A DNA stretch of 64,000 nt. Origin: Lachnospiraceae bacterium (GTDB lineage: Bacteria; Bacillota; Clostridia; Lachnospirales; Lachnospiraceae). The stretch spans positions 96,988 through 160,987 of the forward strand of contig JAFWZV010000009.1 of NCBI GenBank assembly GCA_017517305.1, in the 5' to 3' direction. Numbering within the stretch: position 1 is the first letter of the stretch; every line of letters starts with the position of its first letter. Of this stretch, positions 13,247 through 39,192 are shown piece after piece. The position numbers and the translations under genes are program-made. The notes below the pieces were generated by a model that was given only the letters and a program-made list of their open reading frames with translations, ran no database searches and was not told the origin of the DNA.

Positions 13247-13366
13247 ATCTGCGTGCCACCTAACACATTGGCCGACCTGCCTAGGGATTTATCTCCGCTG
13301 ACACTTAAAACGGTCAGCTTCGCTAAACCCTGTCGCGGTCGGAATATAATATATCGGCACACAGAT
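13247..13366. repeat. Structured dispersed element, copy A
   Basis: This is the first of three related elements. Nested stems read from outside in: ATCTGCGTGCC/GGCACACAGAT (13247-13257 with 13356-13366), CCGACC/GGTCGG (13272-13277 with 13137-13142 plus 200, that is 13337-13342), AGGG-ATTTA/TAAACCCT (13283-13291 with 13324-13331) and GCTGAC/GTCAGC (13297-13302 with 13313-13318). The internal loop TGCCT/GTCGC and the apical loop ACTTAAAACG match copies B and C. The base pairs in the outer and middle stems differ from those copies but remain complementary. Here the outer stem is not a terminator. Confidence 0.75.
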
Positions 13367-13376
13367 CTATATCATT

Positions 13377-15995
13377 CTATCTTTGCTCGTCTTTCAGTCT
13401 TGTGAGCACTGCTATACTAACACCTGCAAATAGGAAGGTTACTGCGAATAGGAAGCCCCAGCATTTGCCCATATGAGATTTAGTTCTTACAAACATCTCA
13501 TCAACTTCCTCTTCATCTTCCTCCTCTTCATCCTCTGGAGCTTCTACAGTAACAGGCTCAGATACGTATTCCTCAAAGGACTGAGGGTCGTTTGCATACA
13601 CTGAGTAATATTCAATAGTATCCTGAAGCTCATTGATAGTCTCATCATAAGCATCCTGCATAGAAGCTATAGCATCGTTACAGCTAGCAATAAGCTCATC
13701 CTGCTTCTGCTTCGCCTCTTCCTCTGCCTTCTTAGCATCCTCTTCTCCTACTGGTTCAAGGGCGTTCAAATCATTAGTACTTCCAAGTGCCTCCATAGAC
13801 CAACGGCTGAAGGTCACATATGAAATCTTCTCTGTAACACCGTCAAGGGAGAATAATATTCCAGAGAATAAAAGCTGTATAATAAGTACAAATGGTGCAA
13901 TAGTCATTGCTCTATCACCATTCTTGGAAATGGCTGATATAAGAAGACCAAAGGCTGCTGCTGCATAGATTGTAACAAATATTGTCACCATCATTTCTAA
14001 CACAGCATTACCCAAAACAACTCCATCACACTGTGGCTTACCCTTAATTATTACGAATACTGCCACTAATATTACAGCCTGAATTATAGCTATAGCTGCC
14101 TGGACAATATACTTTGAAAGCATATATATCGGTAGCTTCAGATTAGCCATATATTCTCGTTTTAGAATGACTCGTTCCTTGTAAATCTCTTGGATAGTAT
14201 TGAAAAGTCCCATCCAAATACCTGCACTCATAAGTGCAAATAATATAGATCTAGTTTCAAACATTTTCTCGTAGATACCATCCTCGGCAACTAAAGCCAT
14301 AAGAATACCTATAAGGATTGGCTGTAAGAAGATCATCATCAATCTTCCTATATCATTCTTAATAAGAGTAACATATCTTCTAATCAGTACAGAAAGCTGA
14401 TTAAGGCTACTAGCCTTCTTAGGCTTAATCTCCTTACCCGAGTTAGTTCCTAAACCATCATCAAGCTTATTAATACCTGAAGCCTTAAATCTTGCTTCCC
14501 AGCCCTTAGTATCTGAAGTAATCTTATCATATACTTCAACAATATCATCAGTATCAAAGAATTCCTTAATTCCTGATGGAGCGCCACAGTAGCAAAGTCG
14601 TCCACCATAGCCCATAATTATAACCTTGTCACACAGGTGAATATTATTAGTGGTATGAGTAACCATAATAATAGTCTTTTCCTGCTCCTTAGACAATCTG
14701 CTAAGAGTGTGCATAAGGTGCTGCTCTGTTCCAGGATCAAGACCTGAGGTAGGCTCATCTAAGAAGAATAATCCTGGGTTGGCAAGAAGCTCAACTGCGA
14801 TACTTGCCCTCTTCTTCTGTCCACCTGACAGTCGTCTAATATATGTATCCTGATGTTCAAGAAGCTCAACCATCTCTAATACATCATGAATTCGCTTGTA
14901 AATCTCTTCCTTGGTTGTATCCTCTGGCATCTTAAGCTTTGCTGTGTAGTAAAGCATCTTCTTCAGAGTAATATTCTCATAAATTATATCCTGCTGAGGA
15001 ACAAAACCAATAACGTTCTTCAAGGTCTGGAAATTCTCTCTCAGATTAATACCATTACAGAATACATCGCCTGTAATCTGTGTATCAAATCCACTCATAG
15101 CTGTCATAAGAGTTGTCTTACCAGCTCCCGAACCACCAATTATTGCTACGAATTCATTTGCCCCAATACTACAGCTTACCTTATCAAGAATGGTCTTCTT
15201 ACCGCCCTTGGCAGGAACCTCCTTATTCAGGTTCTTAATATTAAGAGCAATACCTTCTGGATTTACCTTGTAGAATACTTTCCCAGCACTGAATATAAAG
15301 GTTGTATTCAATATTGTAAAGATATCCTTATCTGTAAGTCTTACAGGCTTATCTATCTTAACACCATTGACGAATACACCGTTAGTTGACTTATTATCAA
15401 ATACGTAGTATTCCCCATTCATATGCCTAATTCCTGCATGATAACGGGAAACCGCTACATTTCGAATTTTGATATCACAGTCCTCAGCACGACCAATGCT
15501 GTTATCCCCATCATGAAGACTATAAGTTCTCCATGTTCCACTTGCCGCATCATTATCATACAGCATAAGAACTGCTTCTATCTCTCCTACTGACTTGTTA
15601 GTGCCAAGTCTAATTATCATATCCTTATTATCACCGCCATAGTACTGTCCTGGCTGAGCCTTATAAAACTGTGGGCCATAAGCAATATATGTGCCGTTTG
15701 AGCTATTGTTATCCTTAATGTAGAACACACCATTAGATATACAAATCTCTCCATGATATCCAGATACAATTTCTGAGTTGATAACTATACTGTTATCACT
15801 CTTACGTCCAAATGAATACACCGCGTCTGTATGTCCGCTTAAATCAAGTTCATTGATACCGCTTTTATCAACCACTACAAGGGTATTCTTCTTGTTGGAC
15901 TGACCACTATTTTGCTGAAGATTCGCCTGATACTGTGCAAGCATAGTTTCATCAAAAAATGTGGTTTGATTTCCACCCATATTATTCATATCCAT
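13377..15995 (-). CDS. FHA-domain ABC transporter (ABC-2/ABCG-like half transporter)
   Basis: The start at 15995 follows an AAAGGTG site and gives 872 residues; an in-frame upstream codon at 16040 has no such site. Two FHA phosphothreonine-binding domains lie at roughly residues 35-120 and 145-235 (cores SFGRKSDNSIVI and SIGRAEDCDIKI). An ABC ATPase follows (GGSGAGKTT, LSGGQKKRASIAVELL, LFFLDEPTSGLDPG), then a membrane domain of about six helices. The last loop carries a Glu/Asp-rich stretch before a final helix. FHA-ABC fusions are read as exporters controlled by Ser/Thr kinases; the cargo is unknown. It lies directly downstream of ftsZ, beyond the ftsZ terminator. Confidence 0.9.
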   Translation of the reverse strand: MDMNNMGGNQTTFFDETMLAQYQANLQQNSGQSNKKNTLVVVDKSGINELDLSGHTDAVYSFGRKSDNSIVINSEIVSGYHGEICISNGVFYIKDNNSSNGTYIAYGPQFYKAQPGQYYGGDNKDMIIRLGTNKSVGEIEAVLMLYDNDAASGTWRTYSLHDGDNSIGRAEDCDIKIRNVAVSRYHAGIRHMNGEYYVFDNKSTNGVFVNGVKIDKPVRLTDKDIFTILNTTFIFSAGKVFYKVNPEGIALNIKNLNKEVPAKGGKKTILDKVSCSIGANEFVAIIGGSGAGKTTLMTAMSGFDTQITGDVFCNGINLRENFQTLKNVIGFVPQQDIIYENITLKKMLYYTAKLKMPEDTTKEEIYKRIHDVLEMVELLEHQDTYIRRLSGGQKKRASIAVELLANPGLFFLDEPTSGLDPGTEQHLMHTLSRLSKEQEKTIIMVTHTTNNIHLCDKVIIMGYGGRLCYCGAPSGIKEFFDTDDIVEVYDKITSDTKGWEARFKASGINKLDDGLGTNSGKEIKPKKASSLNQLSVLIRRYVTLIKNDIGRLMMIFLQPILIGILMALVAEDGIYEKMFETRSILFALMSAGIWMGLFNTIQEIYKERVILKREYMANLKLPIYMLSKYIVQAAIAIIQAVILVAVFVIIKGKPQCDGVVLGNAVLEMMVTIFVTIYAAAAFGLLISAISKNGDRAMTIAPFVLIIQLLFSGILFSLDGVTEKISYVTFSRWSMEALGSTNDLNALEPVGEEDAKKAEEEAKQKQDELIASCNDAIASMQDAYDETINELQDTIEYYSVYANDPQSFEEYVSEPVTVEAPEDEEEEDEEEVDEMFVRTKSHMGKCWGFLFAVTFLFAGVSIAVLTRLKDEQR

Positions 15996-16060
15996 ATGCG
16001 TTTCACCTTTCTTATGTATTTTAAATACATTCTCAAGCATAAAATACTTAAGATATGCAT

Positions 16061-16101
16061 AAAAAAGTCTGTCGCATTACATATGCAATACGACAGACCT
16101 T
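16061..16101 (-). terminator. ftsZ terminator
   Basis: In the ftsZ direction a stem of GTCTGTCG plus ATT pairs, with a TGCATATGT-type loop, is followed by TTTTTT. It closes the dcw transcript before the ABC transporter gene. Confidence 0.88.
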
Positions 16102-16116
16102 GAATTAGCTTACAAA

Positions 16117-17343
16117 TTAACCTCTCTTAAGGAAGTCTGGAATCTTAATTGCGTTAGGGTTATTAGCAGCTGCTGGCTGTGGTCTAACTGGTGTAGCCTT
16201 AGTAGCTGTCATATCAACGCCTGGTGTCACAGGCTTAACTGGTGTATTCAAGAATGATGGCTTAACTGAATTAGTTGTTCCTGTTGTAATAGGCTGTCCT
16301 GAATAAGTAGGTGCGCCTCCAATAGGAGTAACACTTGGCTTAGCCTGTGGCTTGCTTGCCTGTGGAACAGTAACTGTAGCAGCATTAGCTGCGTTAGCCT
16401 CAATACCAGTAGCGATGATTGTAATGCATACATCCTCACCCATATTATCATTGTCAACTGTACCAAAAATAATGTTAGCATTATCTCCAGCAACCTCTGT
16501 AAGGTATGTAATAGCATCGTATGCCTCAACAATACCAATGTTACCTGAGAAGTTAACGATAATATCTGTAGCACCTGTTACTGTAGTCTCAAGTAATGGA
16601 CTATCCATAGCTGACTTAATTGCGTCAACTGCCTTGTTATCACCACTTGCAGTACCGATACCGATATGAGCAACACCCTTGTCCCTCATAACTGTCTGAA
16701 TATCAGCAAAGTCAAGGTTGATAAGTCCTGGCTTATTAATAAGGTCTGTTACACCCTGTACACCCTGCTGAAGAACCTCATCAGCCTTCTTAAGTGCTTC
16801 AGGAATTGTAGTACGCTTATCACAAATCTGTAAAAGCTTATCGTTAGGAATAACGATTAATGTATCAACATTCTCTCTAAGCTTAGCAATACCATTGAGG
16901 GCGTTGTTCATTCTAGGCTTACCCTCGAATGAGAAAGGCTTAGTAACTACGCCAACTGTAAGAATACCAAGATTTCTAGCAATCTCAGCAACTACAGGAG
17001 CAGCTCCTGTACCTGTTCCACCACCCATACCACAAGTTACGAATACCATATTGGCATCCTTCATGATATCAGTAATCTCTTCTCTATTCTCTTCAACTGC
17101 ACTAGCACCGATCTCAGGCTTTGCACCTGCACCAAGTCCCTTAGTCAGCTTCTCACCAATCTGAATCTTAGTAGTAGCTCTACTCTGTGATAAGATCTGC
17201 TTATCAGTGTTAATAGCTATAAGCTCAACACCCTCTACATTCTCATCGATCATTCTGTTAACTGCATTGTTTCCTGCTCCACCTACACCTATGACAAGGA
17301 TTCTTGCAGGGGTTTTTTCGTCGTTTGATTTTATTTCAAGCAA
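16117..17343 (-). CDS. ftsZ: Cell division protein FtsZ
   Basis: FtsZ is the tubulin-like GTPase that forms the division ring. Visible motifs are [13 protein letters not shown] near the N-terminus, the tubulin signature [14 protein letters not shown] and the conserved C-terminal peptide [10 protein letters not shown], which binds FtsA/SepF-type anchors. A Pro/Thr/Ala-rich linker lies between core and tail. I chose the TTG at 17343 because an AAGGAGG site sits 8 bp before it. The ATG at 17361 has no ribosome site and would place that AAGGAGG inside the coding sequence. The protein then has 408 residues. No ftsA gene precedes it. A 168-bp gap separates it from ftsQ, so it may also have its own promoter. 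Confidence 0.96.
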
Positions 17344-17511
17344 GGTCTTTTCCTCCTTCATTGTAATTAACTTAATCTTAAATATTTCTCATTGCAATAT
17401 TTATTTCAATGCATAAAAACCCACATTGAACATTATTACCTTAATAATATAATCATTTTACAAAATAATCAACTGTTTTTTGTTAAAATGCCTATATTTT
17501 CTTAATATTTT

Positions 17512-18210
17512 TTACTTAAAGCTTGCTGTTGCATCTTCAGAATCAAAATCCTTCATATTCAGTGTACCTTCCTTGCCTTCTAGGCCTTCTAGTATACTTC
17601 CCAGATTCATCATCTGTAGCTCAAGGTATTCCCCCTCTCCTAGTTCAATGGTAATTTTATCATGGGTTAGCACTAGTTCGTTTGAGGCTGTAAACTTTAT
17701 TCCGTCTATATCCAAGTTATACTTTTCAATAAGCTGTGTAACGGAAAGTATAGCCTTAAACCTTCTCTCATCCTCTATAGGAAGCTTTTTACCAACCTCC
17801 CATCTGTCAAATTCCAATCCCTTAATAAATGGAACTCCAGGAACCATCTCAGATGAAGAATCAAGAACTATTCCATCCTTGTCAAAATATATGTAGCTAT
17901 TCATATATTCAACACATCCTGCCAGCGCTTTCTCATATACTGTTACTGACACTGTATTCTTTGACAAGTAATCTATCTCTATCTTGTCCACAAACTGTAT
18001 TCCCTCTACAGGTTTTAGCTTGCAGGTAAGACATAGAGCTAATGTATTGTCGGCAAAAGCTTTATCCTTAACTACAGCGGCAATCAATTCCTGATTTGCA
18101 AATTCACATTCGCTCACCTTTACTTCCTCAAGCTTGAAGGAGTTTAAGTAAGCATATAAGCCAAGAATCAATACCAATAAAGCAATCGCCTTCTTGGATC
18201 CTTTTTTCAA
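17512..18210 (-). CDS. ftsQ: Division protein FtsQ/DivIB-like (POTRA domain)
   Basis: The 232-residue protein has a short basic cytosolic end (MKKGSKKA), one membrane helix (about residues 8-25) and an extracellular part. That part begins with a POTRA-like domain (about 27-100, starting LEEVKVSECEFANQELIAAVV) and continues with the FtsQ/DivIB beta domain. It stabilises the FtsL-DivIC pair at the division site. Sequence similarity within this family is low, so the call rests on topology, length and position between ftsW and ftsZ. It begins 32 bp after ftsW. Confidence 0.82.
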   Translation of the reverse strand: MKKGSKKAIALLVLILGLYAYLNSFKLEEVKVSECEFANQELIAAVVKDKAFADNTLALCLTCKLKPVEGIQFVDKIEIDYLSKNTVSVTVYEKALAGCVEYMNSYIYFDKDGIVLDSSSEMVPGVPFIKGLEFDRWEVGKKLPIEDERRFKAILSVTQLIEKYNLDIDGIKFTASNELVLTHDKITIELGEGEYLELQMMNLGSILEGLEGKEGTLNMKDFDSEDATASFK

Positions 18211-18242
18211 AATCCTTTCACTTCTCTTTCTAATTATGTATT

Positions 18243-19382
18243 TTATTTATAAGGCTTTATCTGTCTGGATACAGTTAAAACCAATCCTATCTCAATTAAG
18301 GTTGCAACTATAGATGAACCACCGTAGCTTATAAAAGGAAGTGTAACTCCAGTAGGTGGTAATGTATTGGTAACAACTCCAATATTAATTATGAGCTGTA
18401 CTGCTATCTGCGCCATTACACCAATAACCATATAGCTTGCAAATTTGTTAGGAGCATTATTGGCTATATATCTAAATCTGAACAAAAGCATTATGAACAA
18501 TGTAATAATTGCCAATGCACCGAAAAGTCCAAGTTCCTCACATATTACAGAGAAAATCATATCATTATGTGACTCTGGCAAAAATCCTGTCTTCTGTATA
18601 CTATTTCCTAAGCCCTTGCCAAACAATCCACCAGAACCAATGGCGTACAGGGACTGCATAGTCTGATAACCACTTTCACTGGTTTCCGGATTAAGCCAAG
18701 CATCTATTCTTCCACCTCTGTATCCCTCTGCTACAATCAAAAGAACACCTGCACCTACCGCGATAAAACACCAAGCAATAAGTGGTCTTATATCCTTTGC
18801 TGCAACAAATATTACAACCACCATAATACCAAAACACACAACCGCTGTACTAAGATTTTCAGTTGCAACAAAACCAATTCCAACTATTGGCAACATCATT
18901 ACTTTGAAAAGACTCTTAAAATCCTCTAACCATTCCTCATTTGTAGTGCATACCTTGGCTATGTATACAATTATGGCAGGCTTTAGAAACTCTGATGGCT
19001 GCAAATTGAAAAAGCCCAAATCAATCCATCTAACAGCACCATGGCTGGCTATTCCAAGAACCAACACAATGCCACAAAGCACTACCGCCGCAATGATTAA
19101 TATCATGGCATAATCAAAATACTTTTTATAATTAATCCCTGATAAAATCATCATAAGAACAAAGCCTGCAATAGCAATACCTGCCTGCTTAATAGCATAA
19201 AAATAATCACTGTTGCCCTCCATAACTGCTCTATAAGAGCTGGCGCTGTAAATCATCATTATGCCAAACAAAACCAATACAATGGTTATGAATAATGTTT
19301 GATAATCAAAATATCCTTCCTTCCATAAGAAAAAGGATGAATTATTTTTTTTATTTGTAGCCGTTTCAGACCTATTACTCAC
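18243..19382 (-). CDS. ftsW: SEDS glycosyltransferase FtsW/SpoVE-like
   Basis: The 379-residue polytopic protein (about ten helices) matches FtsW/RodA/SpoVE. Recognisable stretches are FNLQPSEFLKPA (about residues 125-136), GLFGKGLGNSIQKTGFLPES with HNDMIFSVICEELG in the large extracellular loop region, and the C-terminal PFISYGGSS. SEDS proteins polymerise glycan strands from lipid II together with a class B PBP. Two such PBPs are encoded upstream. It lies 12 bp from murD and 32 bp from ftsQ, in the usual dcw position. Confidence 0.93.
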   Translation of the reverse strand: MSNRSETATNKKNNSSFFLWKEGYFDYQTLFITIVLVLFGIMMIYSASSYRAVMEGNSDYFYAIKQAGIAIAGFVLMMILSGINYKKYFDYAMILIIAAVVLCGIVLVLGIASHGAVRWIDLGFFNLQPSEFLKPAIIVYIAKVCTTNEEWLEDFKSLFKVMMLPIVGIGFVATENLSTAVVCFGIMVVVIFVAAKDIRPLIAWCFIAVGAGVLLIVAEGYRGGRIDAWLNPETSESGYQTMQSLYAIGSGGLFGKGLGNSIQKTGFLPESHNDMIFSVICEELGLFGALAIITLFIMLLFRFRYIANNAPNKFASYMVIGVMAQIAVQLIINIGVVTNTLPPTGVTLPFISYGGSSIVATLIEIGLVLTVSRQIKPYK

Positions 19383-19394
19383 AAATATTCACTC

Positions 19395-20759
19395 CTACAG
19401 TTTGTTTACATATTCCTTAAACATATCTCCTCTTTGCTCGTAGTTATCGAACATTCCCCAGCTTGCACAAGCCGGTGAAAGAAGAACACATTCACCCTCT
19501 ATAGCATGGTCATAGCAGTATTTTACTGCTTCCTCAAGACTTTCCACAAAGACTGTATCTACAAATCCCCTTGACCTTGCACATGCATCAATAGCATTTG
19601 CTGTCTGACCAAGAAGAACTAATTGCTTTACTTTTCCATCAAAGCTATCTATCCACTCATCATAGGATGATTTTTTGTCATATCCACCACCTATTAAGTA
19701 GGTTGTTGACTTCATAGCCTGTATTCCCTTAATGGCAGCATCTGGATTGGTTCCCTTAGAATCATTGTAATACTCTACACCATTTACCGTTCTCACATAT
19801 TCAATTCTATGTGGAACTCCCTTAAATTCACAGCACACCTTTCCAATTGTCTCCACAGGCACACCCATATAATATGCTATGCCCACAGCAGCCAAAACAT
19901 TCTCAACATTGTGATTGCCAAGAATTTGTATATCTGACAAAGCTAATACCTTTGTTTCTACACCTGCTTCTTTTATTACAATGTCACCAGCTTTTACATA
20001 TATGCCCTGTTCAAGCATTGTTAACCTGCTAAAATATACCACTTTACCTGGTAGCATATTAACAAGCTTCATAGTCTCAGGATCATCATAGTTTACCACT
20101 ATGTAATCATCCTGGCTTTGGTTCTTTGACACCGCCGCCTTACAGGATGCATAATTTTCAAATGTATAATGTCTATCCAAATGATCTGGAGTAACATTTA
20201 ATATAGCAGCCACATGTGGCTTAAAATCAACTATTGTTTCTAGCTGGAAGCTACTTACCTCAGCCACAGTCACCGAGTCCTTGGATGTATTAACAACCTG
20301 CTGCGTATATGGAATTCCAATATTACCAACCACGAAGCTACTTGGATTCCACGCTTTCATAATCTCTCCAACAAGAGAAGTTGTTGTTGTTTTACCATTA
20401 GTTCCAGTTATAGCAACTACTGTTCCCTGCTCATAGTAATATGCAAGCTCTATCTCACTCCACACAGGAATATTCTTTTCCTTTACTTTAAGAACAAAAT
20501 CCAAATCTGTAGGTATTCCCGGACTTATAACCATTACAGAAATCTGAGATAATATATCCTCACTAAGCTGTCCTAAAACTATCTCAAGCCTTGTGCTTTT
20601 TCCTGCTTCATCAAGGCTTTCTAATACACCTTCAACTGTAAGATTATTCTTCTTATTCTCATCAAAAAGTATTACCTCTTCGCCTTTATCTATAAGTAAT
20701 TGTGTGGCGCAGATTCCACTTCTTCCGCAGCCTGCCACCAAAACCTTCTTATCGAACAT
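19395..20759 (-). CDS. murD: UDP-N-acetylmuramoylalanine-D-glutamate ligase
   Basis: MurD adds D-glutamate to UDP-MurNAc-L-Ala in the cytoplasm. With the start at 20759 it has 454 residues. Visible motifs are VLVAGCGRSGICA at the N-terminal Rossmann domain, the ATP loop GTNGKTTTT and the C-terminal YNDSKGTNPDAA. The ATG at 20759 is preceded by AGGAGG with a 9-bp spacer. The longer form from 20807 would run into mraY and add an atypical N-terminus. mraY lies 20 bp upstream and ftsW 12 bp downstream. Confidence 0.95.
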   Translation of the reverse strand: MFDKKVLVAGCGRSGICATQLLIDKGEEVILFDENKKNNLTVEGVLESLDEAGKSTRLEIVLGQLSEDILSQISVMVISPGIPTDLDFVLKVKEKNIPVWSEIELAYYYEQGTVVAITGTNGKTTTTSLVGEIMKAWNPSSFVVGNIGIPYTQQVVNTSKDSVTVAEVSSFQLETIVDFKPHVAAILNVTPDHLDRHYTFENYASCKAAVSKNQSQDDYIVVNYDDPETMKLVNMLPGKVVYFSRLTMLEQGIYVKAGDIVIKEAGVETKVLALSDIQILGNHNVENVLAAVGIAYYMGVPVETIGKVCCEFKGVPHRIEYVRTVNGVEYYNDSKGTNPDAAIKGIQAMKSTTYLIGGGYDKKSSYDEWIDSFDGKVKQLVLLGQTANAIDACARSRGFVDTVFVESLEEAVKYCYDHAIEGECVLLSPACASWGMFDNYEQRGDMFKEYVNKL

Positions 20760-20779
20760 AACTTTGTTCCTCCTAGCTT

Positions 20780-21733
20780 CTATATAGCAAGTATTGCAAT
20801 AAAGCAAAGTATTGCAGTAACTATCGAAAAAATAGATACAACCTTTGTCTCAGGCCATCCACTCAGCTCAAAATGATGATGAATTGGGGCCATCTTAAAT
20901 ATTCTCTTACCAGTTTTCTTAAAGTATACCACCTGAATCATTACTGATAAGACCTCTGCAAAGTATATAAATGCAACCAAGAGAATTATAAGTGGCATCT
21001 GAAGTACGTATGCAGTAGATGCTACAAACCCACCTAAAGCAAGTGAGCCTGTGTCTCCCATAAATACTCTGGCCGGATATACATTATATACCAAAAATCC
21101 TAATAAGCTTCCTACTGTTGCACAGGTAATTGGAGCAACACCTGATTCAAGACCTATAGCTGCTACAGTAAAGAAGGTTGCAATAAGCACTGTCACTGAT
21201 GAAGCTAAGCCATCTAATCCATCGGTAAAATTAGCACCATTTACAGTTCCTAAAATTACTATAAACATAAATGCATAATATACTCCACCTATATCTACCC
21301 TCTTATCCATAAAGGGAATAATCATCTCAGTACCAAGATCTGTGTGAGCATACATGTAATAAGCAAATATTCCAGTAACAACAAACTGTCCTAGCATCTT
21401 CTGCCATGCTCTAAGGCCCATAGAACGCTTCATAACCACCTTAATATAATCATCCAAAAATCCAACAAGACCAAAACCAAGAGTGGCAAATAACACTGGC
21501 ACTATTTCCGGATAATCCTTAATGTAAAAAAGTGAAGTGATAATTATACTAAAGAGAATTATCAGACCACCCATAGTTGGTGTTCCTGATTTCTTAAGAT
21601 GTGATTCTGGGCCATCATCTCTTACAAACTGTCCAAATTTCAGTTTTTTCAAAAATGGAATAATTATTGGGCTAAGCACAACACTTATTCCAAAAGCTAT
21701 CAATACTGGTAATACAATATCATTATAATTCAT
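20780..21733 (-). CDS. mraY: Phospho-N-acetylmuramoyl-pentapeptide transferase
   Basis: This 317-residue membrane enzyme with about ten helices makes lipid I from UDP-MurNAc-pentapeptide and undecaprenyl phosphate. Its signatures are KSGTPTMGG (about residues 48-56), the cytosolic LVGFLDDYIKV, NFTDGLDGLASS and the late APIHHHFE loop. An AAGGAG ribosome site precedes the ATG. It follows the first of the two PBP genes by 30 bp and precedes murD. murE and murF, which usually stand just before mraY, are missing from this cluster. Confidence 0.96.
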   Translation of the reverse strand: MNYNDIVLPVLIAFGISVVLSPIIIPFLKKLKFGQFVRDDGPESHLKKSGTPTMGGLIILFSIIITSLFYIKDYPEIVPVLFATLGFGLVGFLDDYIKVVMKRSMGLRAWQKMLGQFVVTGIFAYYMYAHTDLGTEMIIPFMDKRVDIGGVYYAFMFIVILGTVNGANFTDGLDGLASSVTVLIATFFTVAAIGLESGVAPITCATVGSLLGFLVYNVYPARVFMGDTGSLALGGFVASTAYVLQMPLIILLVAFIYFAEVLSVMIQVVYFKKTGKRIFKMAPIHHHFELSGWPETKVVSIFSIVTAILCFIAILAI

Positions 21734-21763
21734 GTCTATACTCCTTCTTGTTCATTAGTTTAT

Positions 21764-27886: not shown

Positions 27887-27897
27887 CTACTACATAG

Positions 27898-28962: not shown

Positions 28963-28976
28963 ATTATTACCTCTTA

Positions 28977-30223: not shown

Positions 30224-30248
30224 ATGCAAAGTAATTAGGAGGTGCAAT

Positions 30249-31055: not shown

Positions 31056-31136
31056 TTAAAAATAAATATTAATAACAATTCAGAATGAGTAAATATAATT
31101 CAATTGTGGTAAACACATATAATATGGAGGATAGAC

Positions 31137-32003
31137 ATGTCAGATTATATAATAAGAGGAATGGCTGCAAATAATCAGGTTAGATTCTTTGCTTGTAACT
31201 CAACAGACACTGTAGAAAAAGCCAGAATAACACACAACACTAGCCCTGTAGTAACCAATGCACTGGGAAGACTTCTCACCGGTGGTGTTCTTATGGGAGC
31301 AATGTGTAAGAACGATACAGACACACTTACAATCAGAGTGCAGTGTCAGGGACCAATACAGGGAATGCTTATAACTGCAGATTCTAAGGGAAATGTAAAA
31401 GGTTATGTAAGCGAAGCACAGGTAATGCTTCCTGCAAAGGATGTAGCCAAGGCCATAGACCTTGGTGTTATGAGTGTAATCAAGGACATAGGCTTAAAGG
31501 AGCCTTATGTAGGACAAACCCATCTGGTAAGTAGCGAAATAGCCATGGATCTCACCTACTATTTTGTAACCAGCGAACAAATCCCATCATCTGTAGCACT
31601 GGGTGTATTGCAAAATGCAGACACAACCGTATCTGTTGCAGGTGGATTTGTAGTTCAACTTATGCCATTTGCAGAGGAACAGCTTATATCAGATTTGGAA
31701 AAACGACTTGAACAATTCTCATTTACCGAATTGTTAGAAAAGGGGGATTCTGTAGAGCAAATTATTGAACAATTATTTGATGGATACGATACAGTAATTA
31801 CAGATACTCTCCCATGTAATTACTGCTGCGACTGTAGCAAGGATAGAGTTGAAAAGGCTGTTATAAGTATGGGGCGTAAAGAAATTGCCGATATGATTGA
31901 AGAAAACCAACCTGTGGAGGTTGTATGTGATTTCTGTCATACAAAATACACATTTTCACCAGAAGAGCTTCTAAAGCTTCTTCAGCAGGGTATAGCAAAA
32001 TAA
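31137..32003 (+). CDS. hslO: Redox-activated chaperone Hsp33
   Basis: Hsp33 is a cytosolic holdase switched on by oxidative stress when its zinc centre is lost. The 288-residue protein has the N-terminal core (residues 1-180) and the redox switch with CDC at about residues 231-233 (within NYCCDC) and CDFC at about 264-267, giving the four zinc ligands. The start has a TGGAGG site. Structured element copy B, wrapped in a terminator, follows directly after its stop. Confidence 0.95.
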   Translation: MSDYIIRGMAANNQVRFFACNSTDTVEKARITHNTSPVVTNALGRLLTGGVLMGAMCKNDTDTLTIRVQCQGPIQGMLITADSKGNVKGYVSEAQVMLPAKDVAKAIDLGVMSVIKDIGLKEPYVGQTHLVSSEIAMDLTYYFVTSEQIPSSVALGVLQNADTTVSVAGGFVVQLMPFAEEQLISDLEKRLEQFSFTELLEKGDSVEQIIEQLFDGYDTVITDTLPCNYCCDCSKDRVEKAVISMGRKEIADMIEENQPVEVVCDFCHTKYTFSPEELLKLLQQGIAK

Positions 32004-32138
32004 AAAAAAGACCAGGAACCAATATACTTTCTTGGCCGGCCTGCCTAGGGTGGGTCCACGCTGACACTTAAAACGGTCAGCTTAGTCCCCACCCTGTCGC
32101 GGCCGGAATATATGTATAGTTCTCCTGGTCTTTTTTTT
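32002..32138. repeat. Structured dispersed element, copy B, inside a terminator
   Basis: The core (32034-32106) has stems CCGGCC/GGCCGG (32036-32041 with 32101-32106), AGGGTGGG/CCCACCCT (32047-32054 with 32088-32095) and GCTGAC/GTCAGC (32060-32065 with 32076-32081). It shares the internal loop TGCCT/GTCGC with copies A and C. The outermost stem, GACCAGGA with its complement between an A-run (32002-32017) and a T-run (32123-32138), forms a bidirectional terminator for hslO and the plsC-like gene. The core is therefore an insertion in a terminator loop. Confidence 0.8.
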
Positions 32139-32937
32139 ATGCTGTCATTTTCTCTTCTATCATACCTTTTGCCATATCGCTTAACTCAGTGGTATTATGA
32201 GTTGCCACGATTTCTTTATCTATAACTCCTATAAATTCAATGTATACATGAGTTTTCTTCCAAGGAGTATTCTTAGATATATTTTCAGCATTCTTGATTA
32301 TTGCCACTACTATTGGACAATCTGCCTTCTTAGCAATTTTAAATGATCCACTCATAAAAGGAAGTAGTCCTTCCCCAGTTTTATTTCTTGTGCCCTCAGG
32401 ATATATTCCTATTGATGCCTCTTGGGACTTAATCAGCTTACTGGCACGCAGGATGGTTTTTGCCTGACTCTTCATATCCTCCTTGTCAAGTTTAGGGCAA
32501 AAGCATCTATGCATAAGTCTTCTAATAACCGGCACCTTGTATATAGCCTTCTTAGCGATAAAACCTGTGTTGTACTCTCTGAGAACCCCCATAGTAAGAA
32601 GTGGATCCATAGCTGATCTGTGATTACAAACCAGCATAAATTTTTCATCAGGAAGACATTCCTTACCAGAATAATGAGTCTTTATATTCATAAAAATCTC
32701 CAAAGACTCAATAATATTATTCACAAAGTATCTGTAAAATGGGCTGTGAGTATCATAGTCCTTATCCATATCAATAAAGGCCGCACAGATACTACAGAAT
32801 AAGCACCATAACAACGCTAAGGCAACAAAGGTTCCTATTAAAACCAATGGTACCAAATAAATCTTTCCAGGAACAAACCAAATACATGAAACTGCAGCCA
32901 TGATAATTGAGATTATTCCCATTCCTTTAAGCAACAT
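32137..32937 (-). CDS. plsC: 1-acyl-sn-glycerol-3-phosphate acyltransferase-like (PlsC/LPLAT)
   Basis: The 266-residue protein has two N-terminal membrane segments (about residues 5-25 and 27-50) and the acyltransferase motifs NHRSAMDPL (HX4D, about residue 107) and YPEGTRNKTGEG (about 180). It acylates lysophosphatidic acid to phosphatidic acid in phospholipid synthesis, or a related lysolipid. It follows the WYL regulator by 15 bp. A second, more divergent acyltransferase is at 46158-46841. The 3' end overlaps the terminator around structured element copy B. Confidence 0.87.
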   Translation of the reverse strand: MLLKGMGIISIIMAAVSCIWFVPGKIYLVPLVLIGTFVALALLWCLFCSICAAFIDMDKDYDTHSPFYRYFVNNIIESLEIFMNIKTHYSGKECLPDEKFMLVCNHRSAMDPLLTMGVLREYNTGFIAKKAIYKVPVIRRLMHRCFCPKLDKEDMKSQAKTILRASKLIKSQEASIGIYPEGTRNKTGEGLLPFMSGSFKIAKKADCPIVVAIIKNAENISKNTPWKKTHVYIEFIGVIDKEIVATHNTTELSDMAKGMIEEKMTA

Positions 32938-32952
32938 ATAATGTCCTCCAAA

Positions 32953-33948
32953 TTAATCATTATACAATGATAAAATATTCTCTATACTTTCCCTTACCTT
33001 ATCACGTATGTCCTGAGGTGACACTACCTCAACATCCTGACCAAAACCAACTAACCATCCTATAAACTGTTGACTTGGAACTACATCTACATTAATTGTA
33101 AAGAAGCCCTTCTTATTATCTGGGATAATCATAGTACTAAGACCAAATCTGTCAAGCATGGCTCCAATCAAACGATTATTTACTCTTAGTTTAACTAAGC
33201 AGGATTCACCACCAAACATTCCAAAGGTCCTCTTAGAATAAGATGGTAGATCAAAATCCTTAAACTCTTTATGTCCTTGTCTTTCCTTATCAGTTATCTT
33301 CAAGGACACCATCTTATCAACTCTATAATGTCTGATTTCTTTAAACTCATCATTATAACCTATCAGATAATAGTTCTCGTCCTCCCAGGTGAGAGCCCAA
33401 GGACTTACCTCATAAATTTTTCCGTCATGCTTTACCTCTAACTCCTTGCTTGTATTCCAAGCAGTATATTGGAACTCAACACGAACCCTCTTATGTATAG
33501 CCTCATGAAGCTTATCCACTGCCAAAAAGATTTTCTCATTAGGGGTTTTAACTCTATTAATTACATGAACCTGTCTCTGAAGCTCTACAGCCTGATGCTT
33601 ACTTGTCAGTCCCTCAATCTTTTTAATTAGGGCATCTGTTTTCTTAGATGTCATAAACTTTGAGGACTGTACTGCATCCACCAATAGCTTTAGCTCTGCA
33701 AGTTCAAAATCTCTGCTTACCAGTTTGTAAACAGTTTCCCTACCAGCCTTTTCCTTTACAATGTCCAAACCATATGAATTTAGACATTCTATATCATTGT
33801 ATATGGACTTTCTCTCTGATTTAATATCATAGGATTCAAGATAGTCTATCATCTCATTGACAGTAATTCCATGATTTTCATCAGTATCTCTCATAAATTT
33901 ATCCATTAGATAAATCATCTTCAGCTTTTGATTACTAGATTTTGCCAT
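32953..33948 (-). CDS. WYL-domain transcriptional regulator with N-terminal HTH
   Basis: The 331-residue protein has an N-terminal winged helix-turn-helix (about residues 5-65, DENHGITVNEMIDYLESYDI), a central region, a WYL domain (about 145-215, with SPWALTWEDENYYLIGYN) and a C-terminal WCX part. WYL domains sense nucleic acids or nucleotides and often act in DNA-damage or defence control. The target is unknown; no palindromic operator stands out. It lies between the SCP2 and plsC-like genes with gaps of 11 and 15 bp. Confidence 0.88.
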   Translation of the reverse strand: MAKSSNQKLKMIYLMDKFMRDTDENHGITVNEMIDYLESYDIKSERKSIYNDIECLNSYGLDIVKEKAGRETVYKLVSRDFELAELKLLVDAVQSSKFMTSKKTDALIKKIEGLTSKHQAVELQRQVHVINRVKTPNEKIFLAVDKLHEAIHKRVRVEFQYTAWNTSKELEVKHDGKIYEVSPWALTWEDENYYLIGYNDEFKEIRHYRVDKMVSLKITDKERQGHKEFKDFDLPSYSKRTFGMFGGESCLVKLRVNNRLIGAMLDRFGLSTMIIPDNKKGFFTINVDVVPSQQFIGWLVGFGQDVEVVSPQDIRDKVRESIENILSLYND

Positions 33949-33959
33949 AGCCCTGCTCC

Positions 33960-34277
33960 TTAAAGTAACTTACCAAACTCCAATACCTTCTCTATGCTTC
34001 CGTCAATCTTAAGCTTTCCAAGTGTAAATGCAGCCACAGGGTCAAGCTTACCCTCCATAAGCTTAATGAAGTTCTTTGACTTCATTGTAATTAAAGCCTG
34101 TCTATCAAAGTACTCGTAAGGTTCTACTGAAAGCTTTCCATCCTTAACCTCTACATAAAAGGCTCCAGCGCCCTCCTCAGTTATATTTACCTGAATTGCA
34201 AGGAAGCCATCCACTTTACTAGTATCTGCATCCTTTAATCTTTCTCTTACCTTTTCAACAATCTCTTCGTATGTCAT
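33960..34277 (-). CDS. SCP2 sterol-binding domain protein
   Basis: This 105-residue protein is a single SCP2-like domain (ITEEGAGAFYVEVKDGKLSV, then LMEGKLDPVAAFTLGKLKI, the typical end of the fold). SCP2 domains bind lipids or acyl chains in a tunnel, and in bacteria the ligand is usually unknown. It precedes a regulator and a lysolipid acyltransferase on the same strand, which would fit a lipid-related role, but this is inference. The ATG has an AAAGGAG site. Confidence 0.85.
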   Translation of the reverse strand: MTYEEIVEKVRERLKDADTSKVDGFLAIQVNITEEGAGAFYVEVKDGKLSVEPYEYFDRQALITMKSKNFIKLMEGKLDPVAAFTLGKLKIDGSIEKVLEFGKLL

Positions 34278-34379
34278 ATCATTATTCTCCTTTCAAATTT
34301 ATATAGATTTATTATACAAAATCCAGAATGCGTAGTCAATAATTAAGTCCAATAAATTACCCATGGTCAATTATCAATA

Positions 34380-34961
34380 CTATAGTCCATTTGCTTCCTC
34401 TTGCTCTATCTCTAGATTTCTTTTATTCCATTTCTTCGATATTATGTCAACTATAAATATACTAACAAAGGCTATTATAGTACCAATGGCCGCTCCTGCA
34501 ATCACGTCTGTAGGATAATGAACTCCTATATAAAGTCTAGAGAATGCCATAAGTATAGAAATCACAAATATTGGTACTCCAATCTTTCTTGGCATCATAA
34601 TAAGAATTACAACTCCCACTGCAAAGGCATGAGCTGCGTGACCAGATGGAAAGGAAAAATCCTTTTGTTTATCCACAAGGTTAATCAACCCCTCTACCAC
34701 CTCGTAAGGTCTGGTTCTAGCAACTATATTTTTAATTCCAAGATTCACAGTCAAAAAGGTAATAATTAATGCAACTGCCGATGTAACCCCCACCTTTCTT
34801 GTGTTACTAAGCACAAGAAACAACACGGTCAATACTATCCACAAGCATCCACTATCCCCCAGTCTGGTTATTCCCTTCATAATAGTCGTCATCAAATCTG
34901 TTCTCATATTTTCCTGAATCCATAACAAAATATTGGCATCCCACTCTAATAGTACATTCAT
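34380..34961 (-). CDS. PAP2-family membrane phosphatase
   Basis: From the ATG at 34961 (behind AAGGAG) the protein has 193 residues and about six helices. The three PAP2 motifs are KNIVARTRP, PSGHAAHAF and SRLYIGVHYPTDV. The family dephosphorylates lipid phosphates such as undecaprenyl pyrophosphate or phosphatidic acid. An undecaprenyl-pyrophosphatase role is possible but not provable here. The gene stands alone, with AT-rich gaps on either side. Confidence 0.9.
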   Translation of the reverse strand: MNVLLEWDANILLWIQENMRTDLMTTIMKGITRLGDSGCLWIVLTVLFLVLSNTRKVGVTSAVALIITFLTVNLGIKNIVARTRPYEVVEGLINLVDKQKDFSFPSGHAAHAFAVGVVILIMMPRKIGVPIFVISILMAFSRLYIGVHYPTDVIAGAAIGTIIAFVSIFIVDIISKKWNKRNLEIEQEEANGL

Positions 34962-35063
34962 TCTTCCATCTCCTTGTTTCAATAGCTTCAATACATAATC
35001 TTAATATTATAATTTTATATTCTATATTCTATCCAAGTCAACTAAAAATATAGACAAGTTTTG

Positions 35064-35092
35064 TTGTTTTTAATTAAAACTTTTGATATGAT
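35064..35092 (+). promoter_or_regulatory. Candidate promoter for the PHP-domain gene
   Basis: TTGTTT (35064-35069) and TATGAT (35087-35092) are 17 bp apart, about 28 bp before the start codon. Confidence 0.45.
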
Positions 35093-35120
35093 AATTTCTG
35101 TTAGAAATGAGGTGTTAATA

Positions 35121-35966
35121 ATGGATTTAATAGATTTACATGTACATTCAAACGCATCTGATGGTTCCCTCACACCAGCAGAGGTAGCTGACGAAGCAAT
35201 AGCTATGGGACTTAAAGCAATAGCACTTACAGACCATGACACAGTTGACGGAGTTGCTGAAATACTTGAATATACTAAGAATAAGGATTTGGAAGTAGTT
35301 CCAGGAATAGAGCTTTCCTGCTACTACAAAAACAGAGAGATTCATATACTGGGTTTCTATGGAGATTATGAAAATCCTGAACTTCAAAAGGAATTAGACT
35401 CCCTAAAGGAAGCCCGAGAAGGTCGTAACAAAAAGATGATTGAGCTTATGCAGGCAGATGGATTAAACGTCACCATGGAAAAGCTACTCCATGGCAACCC
35501 TGACAGTGTAATTACCAGAGCTCATTTTGCAAGAGTGCTTGTAGAAGAAGGAATCTGCAAAACCAAGGATATAGCCTTCAAAAAATATATAGGTATCGGT
35601 TGCAAATATTATCTTCCAAAGCCACAGGTTACCTGTGAAAGAGCTATGGGAATACTTAATAAGTATTTCAAAGCAATATATCTGGCTCATCCTCTTCTAT
35701 ACCACTTTGGTTATGCGCAGATTGAAGAGCTTTTAATATATTTAAAATCTCTAGGATTAGATGGTCTAGAAGCATATCACTCCTCTAATAACAGCTACGA
35801 AAGTGACAAGCTTCGTTCTATGGCTTTGAAACTAGACTTAGGTATATCCGGAGGCTCAGATTTTCACGGTGTGGTTAAGCCAAATATAAAAATGGGTATT
35901 GGACGTGGTGGTATGCGTATTCCTATGCGCTTGCTTGACAACATCAAAGCTTCTATAAAGGATTAG
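35121..35966 (+). CDS. PHP-domain phosphoesterase
   Basis: The chosen ATG at 35121 follows a TGAGGTG site; an in-frame ATG at 35061 would overlap the promoter. The 281-residue protein has the PHP metal-binding motifs DLHVHSNASDGSLTP, ALTDHDTVDG, PGIELSC and the late GGSDFHG. Members of this type include 3',5'-nucleoside bisphosphate phosphatases and 5'-3' exonucleases (YciV/RnaAM-like), which recycle pAp or mature RNA 5' ends. Such an activity is likely but not certain. The gene is single and ends in a bidirectional terminator shared with the GGDEF gene. Confidence 0.88.
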   Translation: MDLIDLHVHSNASDGSLTPAEVADEAIAMGLKAIALTDHDTVDGVAEILEYTKNKDLEVVPGIELSCYYKNREIHILGFYGDYENPELQKELDSLKEAREGRNKKMIELMQADGLNVTMEKLLHGNPDSVITRAHFARVLVEEGICKTKDIAFKKYIGIGCKYYLPKPQVTCERAMGILNKYFKAIYLAHPLLYHFGYAQIEELLIYLKSLGLDGLEAYHSSNNSYESDKLRSMALKLDLGISGGSDFHGVVKPNIKMGIGRGGMRIPMRLLDNIKASIKD

Positions 35967-35987
35967 ACAAATATCAAAAACACTAAT

Positions 35988-36031
35988 AAAAATAAACAGC
36001 CTAGGGCTTATGCCATAGGCTGTTTATTTTT
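35988..36031. terminator. Bidirectional intrinsic terminator
   Basis: The stem ATAAACAGCCTA with its complement, flanked by A- and T-runs, lies between the convergent PHP and GGDEF genes and overlaps the stop codon of the latter. Confidence 0.9.
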
Positions 36032-37184
36032 ATGAATCCGACGTAAGAATACCTGTAGTTCCTCTGCTCTTCATTAATTCATAATGATTTTGCTTATTCT
36101 TGTACATACAAGCATCTGCCTCTGCAACTACTTGTTCGATATCCTTTCCTGCACCAACTGCATACCCAACGGAAGCAGATATAGGAATCTTGGTTGCATG
36201 ATTTTTCTTATCTATAGAGCTTTGAATATTAACCACCAGCTCGGCTATTGCTTCTCTGTTTAAGCCCTCACCAATAACAACAAATTCATCTCCTCCTATA
36301 CGATAAGCTTTACATACATCCTTAGTAAACTCTGTTATGGAGGTTGTTATAGCTGATATAAGATAGTCTCCACTATCATGGCCCATAGTATCATTTACCT
36401 TCTTTAAGCCATTAATATCCCAGAACATTACGCCTACCTGGGAGACCGTAGGATAATACTCGTGAACCATCTCCAGATATTTATTCCTGTTATAAAGCTG
36501 AGTCATCATATCCGTCTCGCCTAGAATTCTTAACTCTGTTTCTCTTCTTGCATTGGAAGCGATAACATTTGACAAATGCTTAATCATAGGAATGGTTGCA
36601 AAAAGCACTAAACATCTAGGTACTGCATAATATAATGGCAACGTTCCCCATGGATTGGTATTCACTGTAGTCAAAATAAACTCTCCTGTAACAGGATCAA
36701 TATGGTTATCCTTCACCTGATTAGTTAAAACAAGCATATTAGCATCACAGATACCAAAGTAAAAGCCAGCCATTACAATGGCGAATACACTTATTACTGA
36801 TATAATGTAGGCAAAATTAATTAACTTATTATTCTTATACTGAGCAGAACAAAGTATAGGAATAACGCTTACTAAAACTATGTGATAGGTTAAAAAAGAA
36901 CCTAAAATAGTAACAAATATTACCATAACAATCATAAGCAAATACTTTGTTATAGGTTTATCTGCCATTAGCTTTACAATAAGAGCAGATATTATAGTAC
37001 AGATAGTACACCCTATCATACTATAATACATAAGCTTATCCTGAATAATGAAAATATCCAGAATGTTAAGTATAACTGTAAATCCAACTATGACAGTCAT
37101 AATAATCTGACATTTGAGGGTGAATCTATTACTAGCAGCTTCACCAGTATCGATTGTAGTTGTAGAATTAATACTTTTATCCAT
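36030..37184 (-). CDS. Membrane-bound GGDEF diguanylate cyclase
   Basis: The 384-residue protein has six or so N-terminal membrane helices (about residues 25-200) and a C-terminal GGDEF domain (about 215-375) with an intact RIGGDEF active site. It should make cyclic di-GMP from two GTP. The RxxD inhibitory site normally just before the GGDEF motif is not seen; FTKD stands there, so product feedback may be lost. There is no EAL domain. No cyclic di-GMP riboswitch was recognised in the window. The sensor helices are not of a named type. Confidence 0.9.
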   Translation of the reverse strand: MDKSINSTTTIDTGEAASNRFTLKCQIIMTVIVGFTVILNILDIFIIQDKLMYYSMIGCTICTIISALIVKLMADKPITKYLLMIVMVIFVTILGSFLTYHIVLVSVIPILCSAQYKNNKLINFAYIISVISVFAIVMAGFYFGICDANMLVLTNQVKDNHIDPVTGEFILTTVNTNPWGTLPLYYAVPRCLVLFATIPMIKHLSNVIASNARRETELRILGETDMMTQLYNRNKYLEMVHEYYPTVSQVGVMFWDINGLKKVNDTMGHDSGDYLISAITTSITEFTKDVCKAYRIGGDEFVVIGEGLNREAIAELVVNIQSSIDKKNHATKIPISASVGYAVGAGKDIEQVVAEADACMYKNKQNHYELMKSRGTTGILTSDS

Positions 37185-37345
37185 TATTGTACCTCTTGCA
37201 TTATATTAATTATCAACAATCAACTTTCTATTTACACACTGAACAACATTTTACACTAATTTGCTAATTCTTGCAATTTTTTTAGGCGTAAATTTACAAA
37301 CTGTTAACATTTTTCTACATTTTTATCATTTGACGTCATATATAA

Positions 37346-37374
37346 TTGAAGAAAACTTTATGCTATGATAAAAT
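37346..37374 (+). promoter_or_regulatory. Candidate extended -10 promoter for the GH2 gene
   Basis: TTGAAG (37346-37351) lies 17 bp before TAAAAT (37369-37374), which carries an upstream TG. The ATG at 37405 follows with TTAAGGAGG. Confidence 0.55.
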
Positions 37375-37404
37375 GTTTGTATTCGTTATATTAAGGAGGT
37401 ATCT

Positions 37405-39033
37405 ATGGAAAACTGGAGCTTACACCCCAGACCACAGATGAAAAGGGATTTATTCCTAATTCTAAAGGATAATTGGACCTTGAATCGTATGCCTATTACT
37501 ATGCCATATCCACCACAATCAAAGCTTTCAGGCTTTAATCATGGTGTGGGCAACGTTTTAAATTATAAATGTTCATTTACAATTCCAACTAGCTTCACCA
37601 AAAAGAGAATATTACTACATTTTGGCGCAGTGGATCAGTTTGCTAGCGTAAAGCTTAACGGTAAACATATCGGTGAGAATGAAGGTGGTTATATACCATT
37701 TTTCTTCGATGTCACCGACGAAATCAATCGCTATGGTGAAAACATTTTGGAGGTAGTAGCCACAGATAAGCTTGACACTGATTATCCCTATGGTAAGCAG
37801 TCAAACACTCCTTCTGGAATGTGGTATACCCCTGTAAGTGGCATCTGGCAAAACGTATGGTTAGAAAATGTACCAGACACATATATACAACACCTCAGCA
37901 TGGACATGGACCTAAATTCCGTGGGTATAGAGGTAAATACCAACAAAAAGATAGACAATTATCACATTGATATACATATGCCTGACGGAAGCATATTAGA
38001 GAAAAATATTTCAGGTAATTATGGAACCATCAAAATTGACCATCCAATACATTGGACCTGTGACAATCCGTATTTATACAAATGTTTTATAAGTTGCGGA
38101 GAGGACACTGTTGAAAGCTACTTCGGTCTTAGAACTATAACCATTGAAAATATTAAGGGTATTAACAGAGTATGTCTTAATGGGGAGCAAATCTTCATGC
38201 ATGGAGTCCTTGATCAGGGGTACTTCCACGACGGATTATTTCTCCCTAAATCAGAGGAGGGTTACGACAAAGATATATTAGCCATGAAGGAATTGGGCTT
38301 TAATCTTCTCAGAAAGCACGTTAAGATAGAACCCGAATATTTTTATTACGCCTGCGATAAGCTGGGCATTCTTGTTATGCAGGATATGGTCAATAGCGGA
38401 GAATATTCATTTATGAGAGACACCGCTATGCCTACTGCAGGCTTTAAGAAGCGTGAAGATGTTCTTCTATCCAAAGAAAACATTAGAAGACAAATCTTCG
38501 AGAAGCAGTTAAAGCTTACTATCAAGCATTTGTATAACCACCCTTCCATTATAGCCTACACTATATTCAATGAAGGCTGGGGACAATTCAACAGTGATGA
38601 AATGTATGATTTGGCTAAGGATTTAGATAGAACCAGATTGGTAGACGCAACCTCTGGTTGGTTCCATCAAAACAACAGCGACTTTGATAGTGAACATATC
38701 TATTTTAAGAACAAAACCCTGAAACCAAAGGAACGACCATTATTCGTTACAGAGTGCGGTGGATATAAATTCATGGATTCTGATCATTTCTTCGGAGATA
38801 AGGAATACGGCTATGGAAGCTGTAAGACTATGGGAGACTTTATGTGTAAGATTGAGGAAATGTATGAAAAGATGATTATCCCAGCTATGAACAAGGGTGT
38901 GTGCGGATGCATCTACACTCAGCTTTCTGATGTGGAGGGCGAAATCAATGGCTTATATACCTACGACAGACAGGTTTGTAAGGTTGATAAGGGTCGTATG
39001 AATGTAATTAAAGAAAAGCTGACTTTTGCGTAG
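37405..39033 (+). CDS. Glycoside hydrolase family 2 enzyme (beta-galactosidase/glucuronidase-like)
   Basis: The 542-residue protein has the GH2 order: a jelly-roll sugar-binding domain (about residues 10-165), an immunoglobulin-like domain (about 168-240) and a TIM barrel from about 250. The acid/base glutamate is in FNEGWGQF and the likely nucleophile in VTECGGY. No signal peptide is present, so it acts in the cytoplasm on imported oligosaccharides. At 542 residues it lacks the large extra domains of LacZ. Specificity cannot be told; no transporter is adjacent. The start has an AAGGAGG site. Structured element copy C follows the gene. Confidence 0.88.
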   Translation: MENWSLHPRPQMKRDLFLILKDNWTLNRMPITMPYPPQSKLSGFNHGVGNVLNYKCSFTIPTSFTKKRILLHFGAVDQFASVKLNGKHIGENEGGYIPFFFDVTDEINRYGENILEVVATDKLDTDYPYGKQSNTPSGMWYTPVSGIWQNVWLENVPDTYIQHLSMDMDLNSVGIEVNTNKKIDNYHIDIHMPDGSILEKNISGNYGTIKIDHPIHWTCDNPYLYKCFISCGEDTVESYFGLRTITIENIKGINRVCLNGEQIFMHGVLDQGYFHDGLFLPKSEEGYDKDILAMKELGFNLLRKHVKIEPEYFYYACDKLGILVMQDMVNSGEYSFMRDTAMPTAGFKKREDVLLSKENIRRQIFEKQLKLTIKHLYNHPSIIAYTIFNEGWGQFNSDEMYDLAKDLDRTRLVDATSGWFHQNNSDFDSEHIYFKNKTLKPKERPLFVTECGGYKFMDSDHFFGDKEYGYGSCKTMGDFMCKIEEMYEKMIIPAMNKGVCGCIYTQLSDVEGEINGLYTYDRQVCKVDKGRMNVIKEKLTFA

Positions 39034-39053
39034 CTCAACATTATGTAAACTAT

Positions 39054-39192
39054 AAAAAGAGACCATGGAATCAATGTATTTTCTTGGCCGGCCTGCCTAG
39101 GGCCGGTCCACGCTGACACTAAAACGGTCAGCTTAGTCCCGACCACTGTCGCGGCCGGAAGGAAAGTAGTTGGATTCCATGGTCTCTTTTTT
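39054..39192. repeat. Structured dispersed element, copy C, inside a terminator
   Basis: The core (39086-39158) has stems CCGGCC/GGCCGG (39088-39093 with 39153-39158), a middle stem GGCCGG/CCGACC with one mismatch (39101-39106 with 39139-39144) and GCTGAC/GTCAGC (39112-39117 with 39127-39132). One T is missing from the apical loop compared with A and B. The outermost stem GAGACCATGGAATC with its complement, between A- and T-runs, is a bidirectional terminator for the GH2 and FliB-like genes and overlaps the stop of the latter. Confidence 0.8.

Follow-up and report, generated by a model that had tools for sequence, protein, structure and literature searches.

The 64,000-nt window analysed here comes from a Lachnospiraceae genome (G000; 2.72 Mb in 25 contigs) and carries three copies of one structured repeat, all on the plus strand and all in gaps between convergent genes. 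Copy A, outer stem included, spans 13247-13366 (stem arms 13247-13257 and 13356-13366). Its core (13272-13342) has P2 arms CCGACC (13272-13277) and GGTCGG (13337-13342) around an internal loop, a variable stem and a tip, the last being the plus-strand hairpin CTGACACTTAAAACGGTCAG at 13298-13317, a tip-pattern match (G000:C8:110285-110304). An ordinary terminator hairpin (13200-13235, listed without strand) adjoins this copy, and its homologue is the sole hairpin of the same gap in the relative G018. Copy B, with a terminator-type outer stem, occupies 32004-32136 (arms 32004-32017 and 32123-32136; core 32036-32106; P2 arms CCGGCC 32036-32041 and GGCCGG 32101-32106; tip 32061-32080), and copy C, likewise with a terminator-type outer stem, occupies 39056-39189 (arms 39056-39072 and 39173-39189; core 39088-39158; P2 arms CCGGCC 39088-39093 and GGCCGG 39153-39158; tip 39113-39131, one T short). 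The neighbours are ordinary throughout: a transglycosylase-domain protein and an FHA/ABC transporter protein at copy A, Hsp33 and an acyltransferase at copy B, and a glycosyl hydrolase family 2 protein and a protein without Pfam match at copy C.

The first-pass annotation had described similar elements at these three places, in one orientation, GC-richer than their surroundings and, for B and C, inside a terminator-type stem, and all of this holds; GC content is 50%, 50% and 53% for A, B and C versus 37% for the whole window. The change of the outer core stem from CCGACC/GGTCGG in A to CCGGCC/GGCCGG in B and C, with both sides altered, is also real. The compensation claimed for the middle stem stands between A and B, but C has one unmatched change (a C opposite an A). 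Folding-energy z-scores on the plus strand are -4.7, -8.3 and -7.2 for A, B and C, and copy C folded alone gives a computed fold unlike that of A and B. A covariance model built from 30 copies (R1) scores the three at 125, 119 and 103 bits, partly by construction, as all three are among its 30 sequences. Elsewhere in the window, a plain hairpin at 63629-63653, AGGACGAGG..CCTCGTCCT, has a stem resembling those around element cores and may be a core-less relic of the repeat.

Searching the genome and its relatives with a covariance model, as had been proposed for these elements, yielded many further copies in which compensatory changes persist, so that the original count of three, though real, is an undercount: G000 alone has at least 40 model matches of at least 71 bits. 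Among the matches listed, the three sister species G018, G003 and G009 have at least 36, 26 and 23 R1 copies, respectively. A search of G000 for the tip CTGACACTTAAAACGGTCAG with up to three mismatches gave 29 matches, against none for the pattern read backwards. For the analyses below we used a set of 125 copies, defined as R1 matches of at least 71 bits in the window and 99 selected stretches (L243 left out), in which one G018 locus present on two contigs (#74, #75) is counted twice. R1 matches below 50 bits, left out of the set, are the reverse strand of known copies, except for two short, weak matches in L160 (13589-13666 and 15985-16064; 31 bits) that are not antisense copies.

The distribution of the repeat is narrow. 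Within the genus, R1 matched 7 of 37 genomes at E 0.001, namely G000, G003, G009, G018 and G031 and, weakly, G032 and G012. Two of the 12 matches in G031, a fourth sister species, are the reverse strand of others, leaving 10 copies. The matches in G032 and G012 belong to a diverged subfamily, whose P2 and internal loop are of the same kind but whose tip differs (GCTTTGAAATGC in several copies). We noticed that the DNA flanking one copy is shared at 87% identity between the two diverged-subfamily species (L402 and L410). Of 392 genomes sampled across the order, including only one other member of the genus, G000 alone was matched, both by R1 under strict filters and by the pattern CTGCCTRGGN{28,56}CCTGKCGCG. 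A lone tip-pattern match with two mismatches occurs in L030 (G044, from another family of the order); the reversed control also gave one, in G053. Viral contigs yielded a single match to a first pattern, inside an ORF and without a model match, and 105 matches to a looser pattern, none with both stems, all of which we take as chance; plasmids and phages gave no match to copy A, the only query used there. In line with the earlier remark that no named RNA with this pattern came to mind, Rfam gave no match in the window at the gathering score, and copy B, compared at E up to 10, reached at best 20.2 bits versus a cut-off of 100. We found no description of the family in titles and abstract openings of the papers listed by full-text searches, a weak sign of its being unpublished, as most subscription papers were beyond the scope of that search. 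As judged from these sequence comparisons, the repeat, in the genome of a gut bacterium, belongs to a family that the collections searched did not yield.

Each copy forms one long, interrupted, unbranched hairpin of about 120 letters. Its outermost layer is a stem whose sequence varies by site, inside which an AT-rich, mainly unpaired stretch flanks the P2 stem (CCGRCC/GGYCGG) on either side. Then follow an asymmetric, nearly invariant internal loop (left CTGCCTAGG, right CCTGTCGCG), the variable stem and a tip hairpin, GCTGAC/GTCAGC, with the loop ACTTAAAACG. Both ends approximate GGGCTGTGC/GCACAGCCC with at most two substitutions in 59 of the 125 copies (reversed-motif control, 0), so about half of the copies have 9 bp terminal inverted repeats, and the median unit of these 59 two-ended copies is 119 bp; one or both 9 bp ends are missing from the other 66. 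One position pair of the internal loop, read in 105 of the 125 copies, is C-T in 80, C-G in 16, T-C in 6, T-T in 3 and C-C in none, one combination thus being avoided. We considered a K-turn, and inspection showed no tandem G-A matching the consensus.

Several lines of evidence indicate that the fold is maintained while its helices change. In an alignment of 30 copies, 98.3% of cells are paired, versus 90.2% after shuffling and 23-42% when slid, and 63 cells are changed on both sides versus 16.8 in shuffles (6 pairs versus 4.1). The covariation score was reached in 0 of 500 shuffles, and the number of further pair types (18 versus 19.0) is the sole one of five measures not above the shuffles. 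A broad alignment of 26 chosen sequences from six genomes, covering both subfamilies, is 91.9% paired, with both-side changes in 11 of 19 pairs (8.1 shuffled), a covariation score of 0.409 that was again reached in 0 of 500 shuffles, and 28 further pair types versus 25.3. For the outer stems, a mean of -27.8 kcal/mol with their own partner compares with -15.2 when partners are swapped, and in 83 of 125 copies none of up to 40 random partners does as well as the own one; the difference is slight for the middle stem (-8.2 versus -6.7). Selection on a single-strand fold is therefore supported by the comparison of predicted pairings, and this part of the first-pass claim, which had named RNA or single-stranded DNA structure, has gained from the many more copies, while its RNA reading is not favoured, for the reasons that follow.

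Strong covariation, invariant loops and placement near stop codons are what would be expected of a structured RNA at mRNA 3' ends, its core selected as RNA for 3' end stability or regulator binding and its outer stem serving as a terminator. The broad alignment speaks for this account too, with G-T pairs outnumbering A-C pairs by 24 to 4 once one constant column is left out. However, the same test gave 6 versus 7 in the G000 alignment (one constant column again left out) and 5 versus 8 for P2 in 109 of the 125 copies, and the test is biased towards G-T by its structure, a prediction made on the top strand. Furthermore, copies between codirectional genes lie in sense orientation in 19 cases and antisense in 32. 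We consider the RNA explanation unlikely. Because the fold is conserved, the strand counts do not point one way and no sense preference appears at codirectional genes, our preference is for a DNA element in which the outer stem also acts as a terminator.

By ORF setting, 56 of the 125 copies are convergent, 51 codirectional and 2 divergent, while 10 fall within ORFs that were called mechanically and 6 lie at the edge of a stretch; the location between convergent genes noted for A, B and C is thus enriched in the family but not universal. The 626 background gaps of at least 100 bp in the same stretches, element gaps included, comprise 86 convergent, 395 codirectional and 145 divergent ones. These counts imply that copies mark gene 3' ends on either strand. 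A TTTT tract near the right end occurs in 87 of the 125 copies, an AAAA tract near the left end in 64, and both in 54. Such tract-bearing outer stems, together with plain hairpins that carry element-type stems at some sister sites, would also suit elaborate intrinsic terminators grown by local duplication and slippage, without any mobile process. That origin is very unlikely in our estimation, as unlinked sites whose flanks are unrelated share a nearly identical core of about 71 nt, which is also found nested inside itself. Element-type stems as a common class of host terminators were also considered and rejected, since such motifs occur in just 8 of 159 plain terminator hairpins.

Some sites show further hairpins around or in place of the repeat. 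Two terminator-like hairpins in inverted arrangement, GTACATA..TATGTGC or a variant, flank copies in L152 (~2655), L172 (~7882) and L148 (~9586), in some cases with ACGATTATGAAGGGG-type arms in between. In G010, where no copy of the family was found, the gaps that correspond to sites #35 and #47 (L424 and L418) contain long nested palindromes of another sort, with A and T tracts, which possibly represent a second hairpin family.

The enrichment at convergent gene ends, along with some 40 copies spread across 2.7 Mb, could also reflect a DNA site that binds a protein and serves chromosome organisation, its copies being kept alike by gene conversion, with little or no mobility. REP/BIME elements may act in this way with gyrase. 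Orientation relative to local GC skew points the same way, being the same in 40 copies and opposite in 82 (122 of 125 copies, orthologous sites being counted repeatedly), and so does the variation of core types over stems that stay site-specific. Against this stand the presence of copy A in G000 only, the nesting of copies and the lack of fixation in the genus; moreover, the helices change freely, so that a reader of duplex sequence would see the loops alone. We rate such a site as improbable, slightly more so than the RNA account. At one orthologous convergent gap (L215 ~4530 and L159 ~9575), the G000 and G009 copies are oppositely oriented.

Our preferred reading, a mobile DNA unit, draws on what relatives hold at the same sites. 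At site A, the ordinary terminator and the element occur together in G000. The gap of G018 contains only the homologous terminator, those of G003, G031 and G010 contain short hairpins of other kinds, and that of G009 contains an odd hairpin. The gap is thus without the element, both neighbours in place, in five relatives (G018, G003, G031, G009 and G010); in G033 and G005 only the right neighbour is anchored, with no element beside it, and G030 was left out of this alignment. The G009 hairpin may be a relic, in which case copy A would be older and lost elsewhere, and loss has some probability as the reason for its absence from the relatives generally. Five loci (#36, #74, #98, #110 and #113; six of the 125 listed copies, one G018 locus being on two contigs) have a copy nested within the inner part of an older one, the outer arms of which can still be read. 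For two of them, the older copy lies un-nested at the same site in G000 (#36 versus #39, #74 versus #16), and the inner copy brought its own GGNCTGTGC stem along in all five.

The flanks of the 59 two-ended copies bear on how the unit lands. Immediately outside the ends, they are reverse-complementary over 3 nt in 30 of 59 copies (shuffled 3.4) and over 4 nt in 12 (1.1), which suggests landing in hairpins, although later stem extension under selection would look alike. Direct target duplications of 3 or 4 nt were found in 0 of 59, and we therefore do not file the repeat as a DDE-type MITE; direct 2-nt duplications in 13 of 59 (shuffled 2.9) may be self-complementary steps such as AT or CG.

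Loss and turnover are evident alongside gain. Site B in G018 retains the stem AAAGACCAGG/CCTGGTCTTT without a core and site C there is a plain hairpin; considering all such plain hairpins with element-type stems, cores appear to have been lost at B, C and #35 in G018 and at #90 and #106 in G000. Core loss is likewise suggested at #84 in G000 and #71 in G018, by inspection hairpins with element-like loop remnants, and at #85 in G000, which has an internal deletion. Core losses are common enough to weaken single empty sites as evidence, and B and C, with their look of core loss in G018, are alone no proof of insertion. The 41 tight orthologous filled pairs are on average 76% alike in the outer regions and 81% in the variable region, versus 60-62% and 70-73% among paralogues; the variable-region identities are approximate owing to a mis-set left border in some rows, and filled sites are over-represented because the relatives' stretches were picked for holding copies. 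Many orthologous pairs keep the stem and switch the core type, and the tip loop varies largely by genome (ACTTAAAACG in 28 of 40 copies in G000; ACTAAAACG or ACTAACACG in 23 of 36 in G018, totals that include rows with an unparsed tip). This pattern of orthologues and paralogues, with genome-specific tips, fits conversion or replacement.

Taken together, we propose that the repeat is a non-autonomous, MITE-like mobile foldback unit of about 119 bp, to which we assign a probability of roughly 0.6. A putative enzyme acting in trans would recognise the folded core as single-stranded DNA or as a cruciform and deliver the unit into hairpins at gene ends or next to them, either terminators or the tips of older copies. 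After landing, the outer stem and its A and T tracts would act as a bidirectional intrinsic terminator; copies would be homogenised by conversion or replacement, and some may lose the core and leave a plain terminator behind. Like MITEs in general, the unit is short (median 119 bp), non-coding, present in at least 40 copies and bounded by terminal inverted repeats, and it varies in presence at orthologous sites (site A; nested versus un-nested), with losses seen too. Against this reading count the many old and shared sites, as in the 41 filled pairs above, the 66 copies with one or both ends missing, the sister sites with apparent core loss, and the lack of a mobilising gene or autonomous copy in the searches described below. 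A simple mobile palindrome had been named in the first-pass annotation as an outcome at odds with its claim; the evidence for mobility comes close to it, but the fold itself is not a simple palindrome.

The nature of the mover was approached through candidate enzymes. Small folded extragenic repeats with an orientation bias relative to GC skew recall repeats that derive from RAYT/REP or IS200/IS605 and are mobilised by a Y1 (HUH) transposase. That derivation is highly improbable here, because Y1 transposase (PF01797, E 1e-5) is absent from the four copy-rich genomes G000, G003, G009 and G018, and of the 8 of 37 genus genomes that have it, G031 alone also has the repeat, with a short fragment. 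A reverse transcriptase (RVT_1, PF00078, E 1e-8) is likewise absent from these four genomes and present in 13 of 37 genus genomes, G031 among them; a group II intron or other reverse-transcribed element was rejected on this absence and on the lack of an Rfam match in the window. No autonomous copy with separated ends was seen in the selected stretches, and the 2-3.3 kb differences at L391, L393 and L394 in G000, considered as places for one, contain ordinary genes and terminators. A more specific and doubtful possibility is a hairpin-seeking repeat, in which a folded single-stranded unit would insert into the tips of hairpins (terminators or its own older copies) by means of an enzyme other than a Y1 transposase or a reverse transcriptase, the fold being read via the invariant internal loop and terminators growing nested as a result.

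Small folded repeats shape bacterial terminators, and their mover is often not known. The present family provides numerous copies and cases of nesting, along with a strict split between invariant loops and free helices, in hosts where Y1, the usual mover of folded repeats, was not found. The question of the mover is testable, in that its gene would be expected in the carrier species of the genus and be missing or decayed in most others.

Among known systems, integron attC sites, bounded by boxes RYYYAAC and GTTRRRY, resemble the repeat in being folded hairpins in which some parts are conserved and the terminal structure varies. No gene cassettes were seen around the copies, and such end boxes on both sides occur in 1 of 125 copies, which speaks against this assignment. 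REP elements are extragenic palindromes that act as hot spots for insertion sequences (PMC1525189), a likeness in both respects; the present repeat differs in being a longer, multi-stem unit that itself appears inside hairpins, without a Y1 (RAYT-type) gene in the four copy-rich genomes. The stem-loop families surveyed in 40 bacterial genomes are, like the repeat, dispersed and intergenic with a common predicted fold, and a terminator role was proposed for some (PMC2267715). That survey suggests function at the RNA level, which we do not favour here, and its main text has 0 occurrences of 'Lachnospir'. A further comparison is with ERIC and the enterobacterial RU-1, RU-2 and RU-3 elements, described as intergenic units of non-coding origin (127, 168 and 103 bp) that have a stable stem loop between terminal inverted repeats, TA ends and TA target duplications; they are regarded as MITE-like, their mover not known (PMC2759123). 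Short intergenic units, terminal inverted repeats and a stable stem loop are thus shared. Set apart by that description, the family reported here lives in other hosts and has TA..TA in 0 of 59 copies, its helices covary around invariant loops, and its copies nest in copies.
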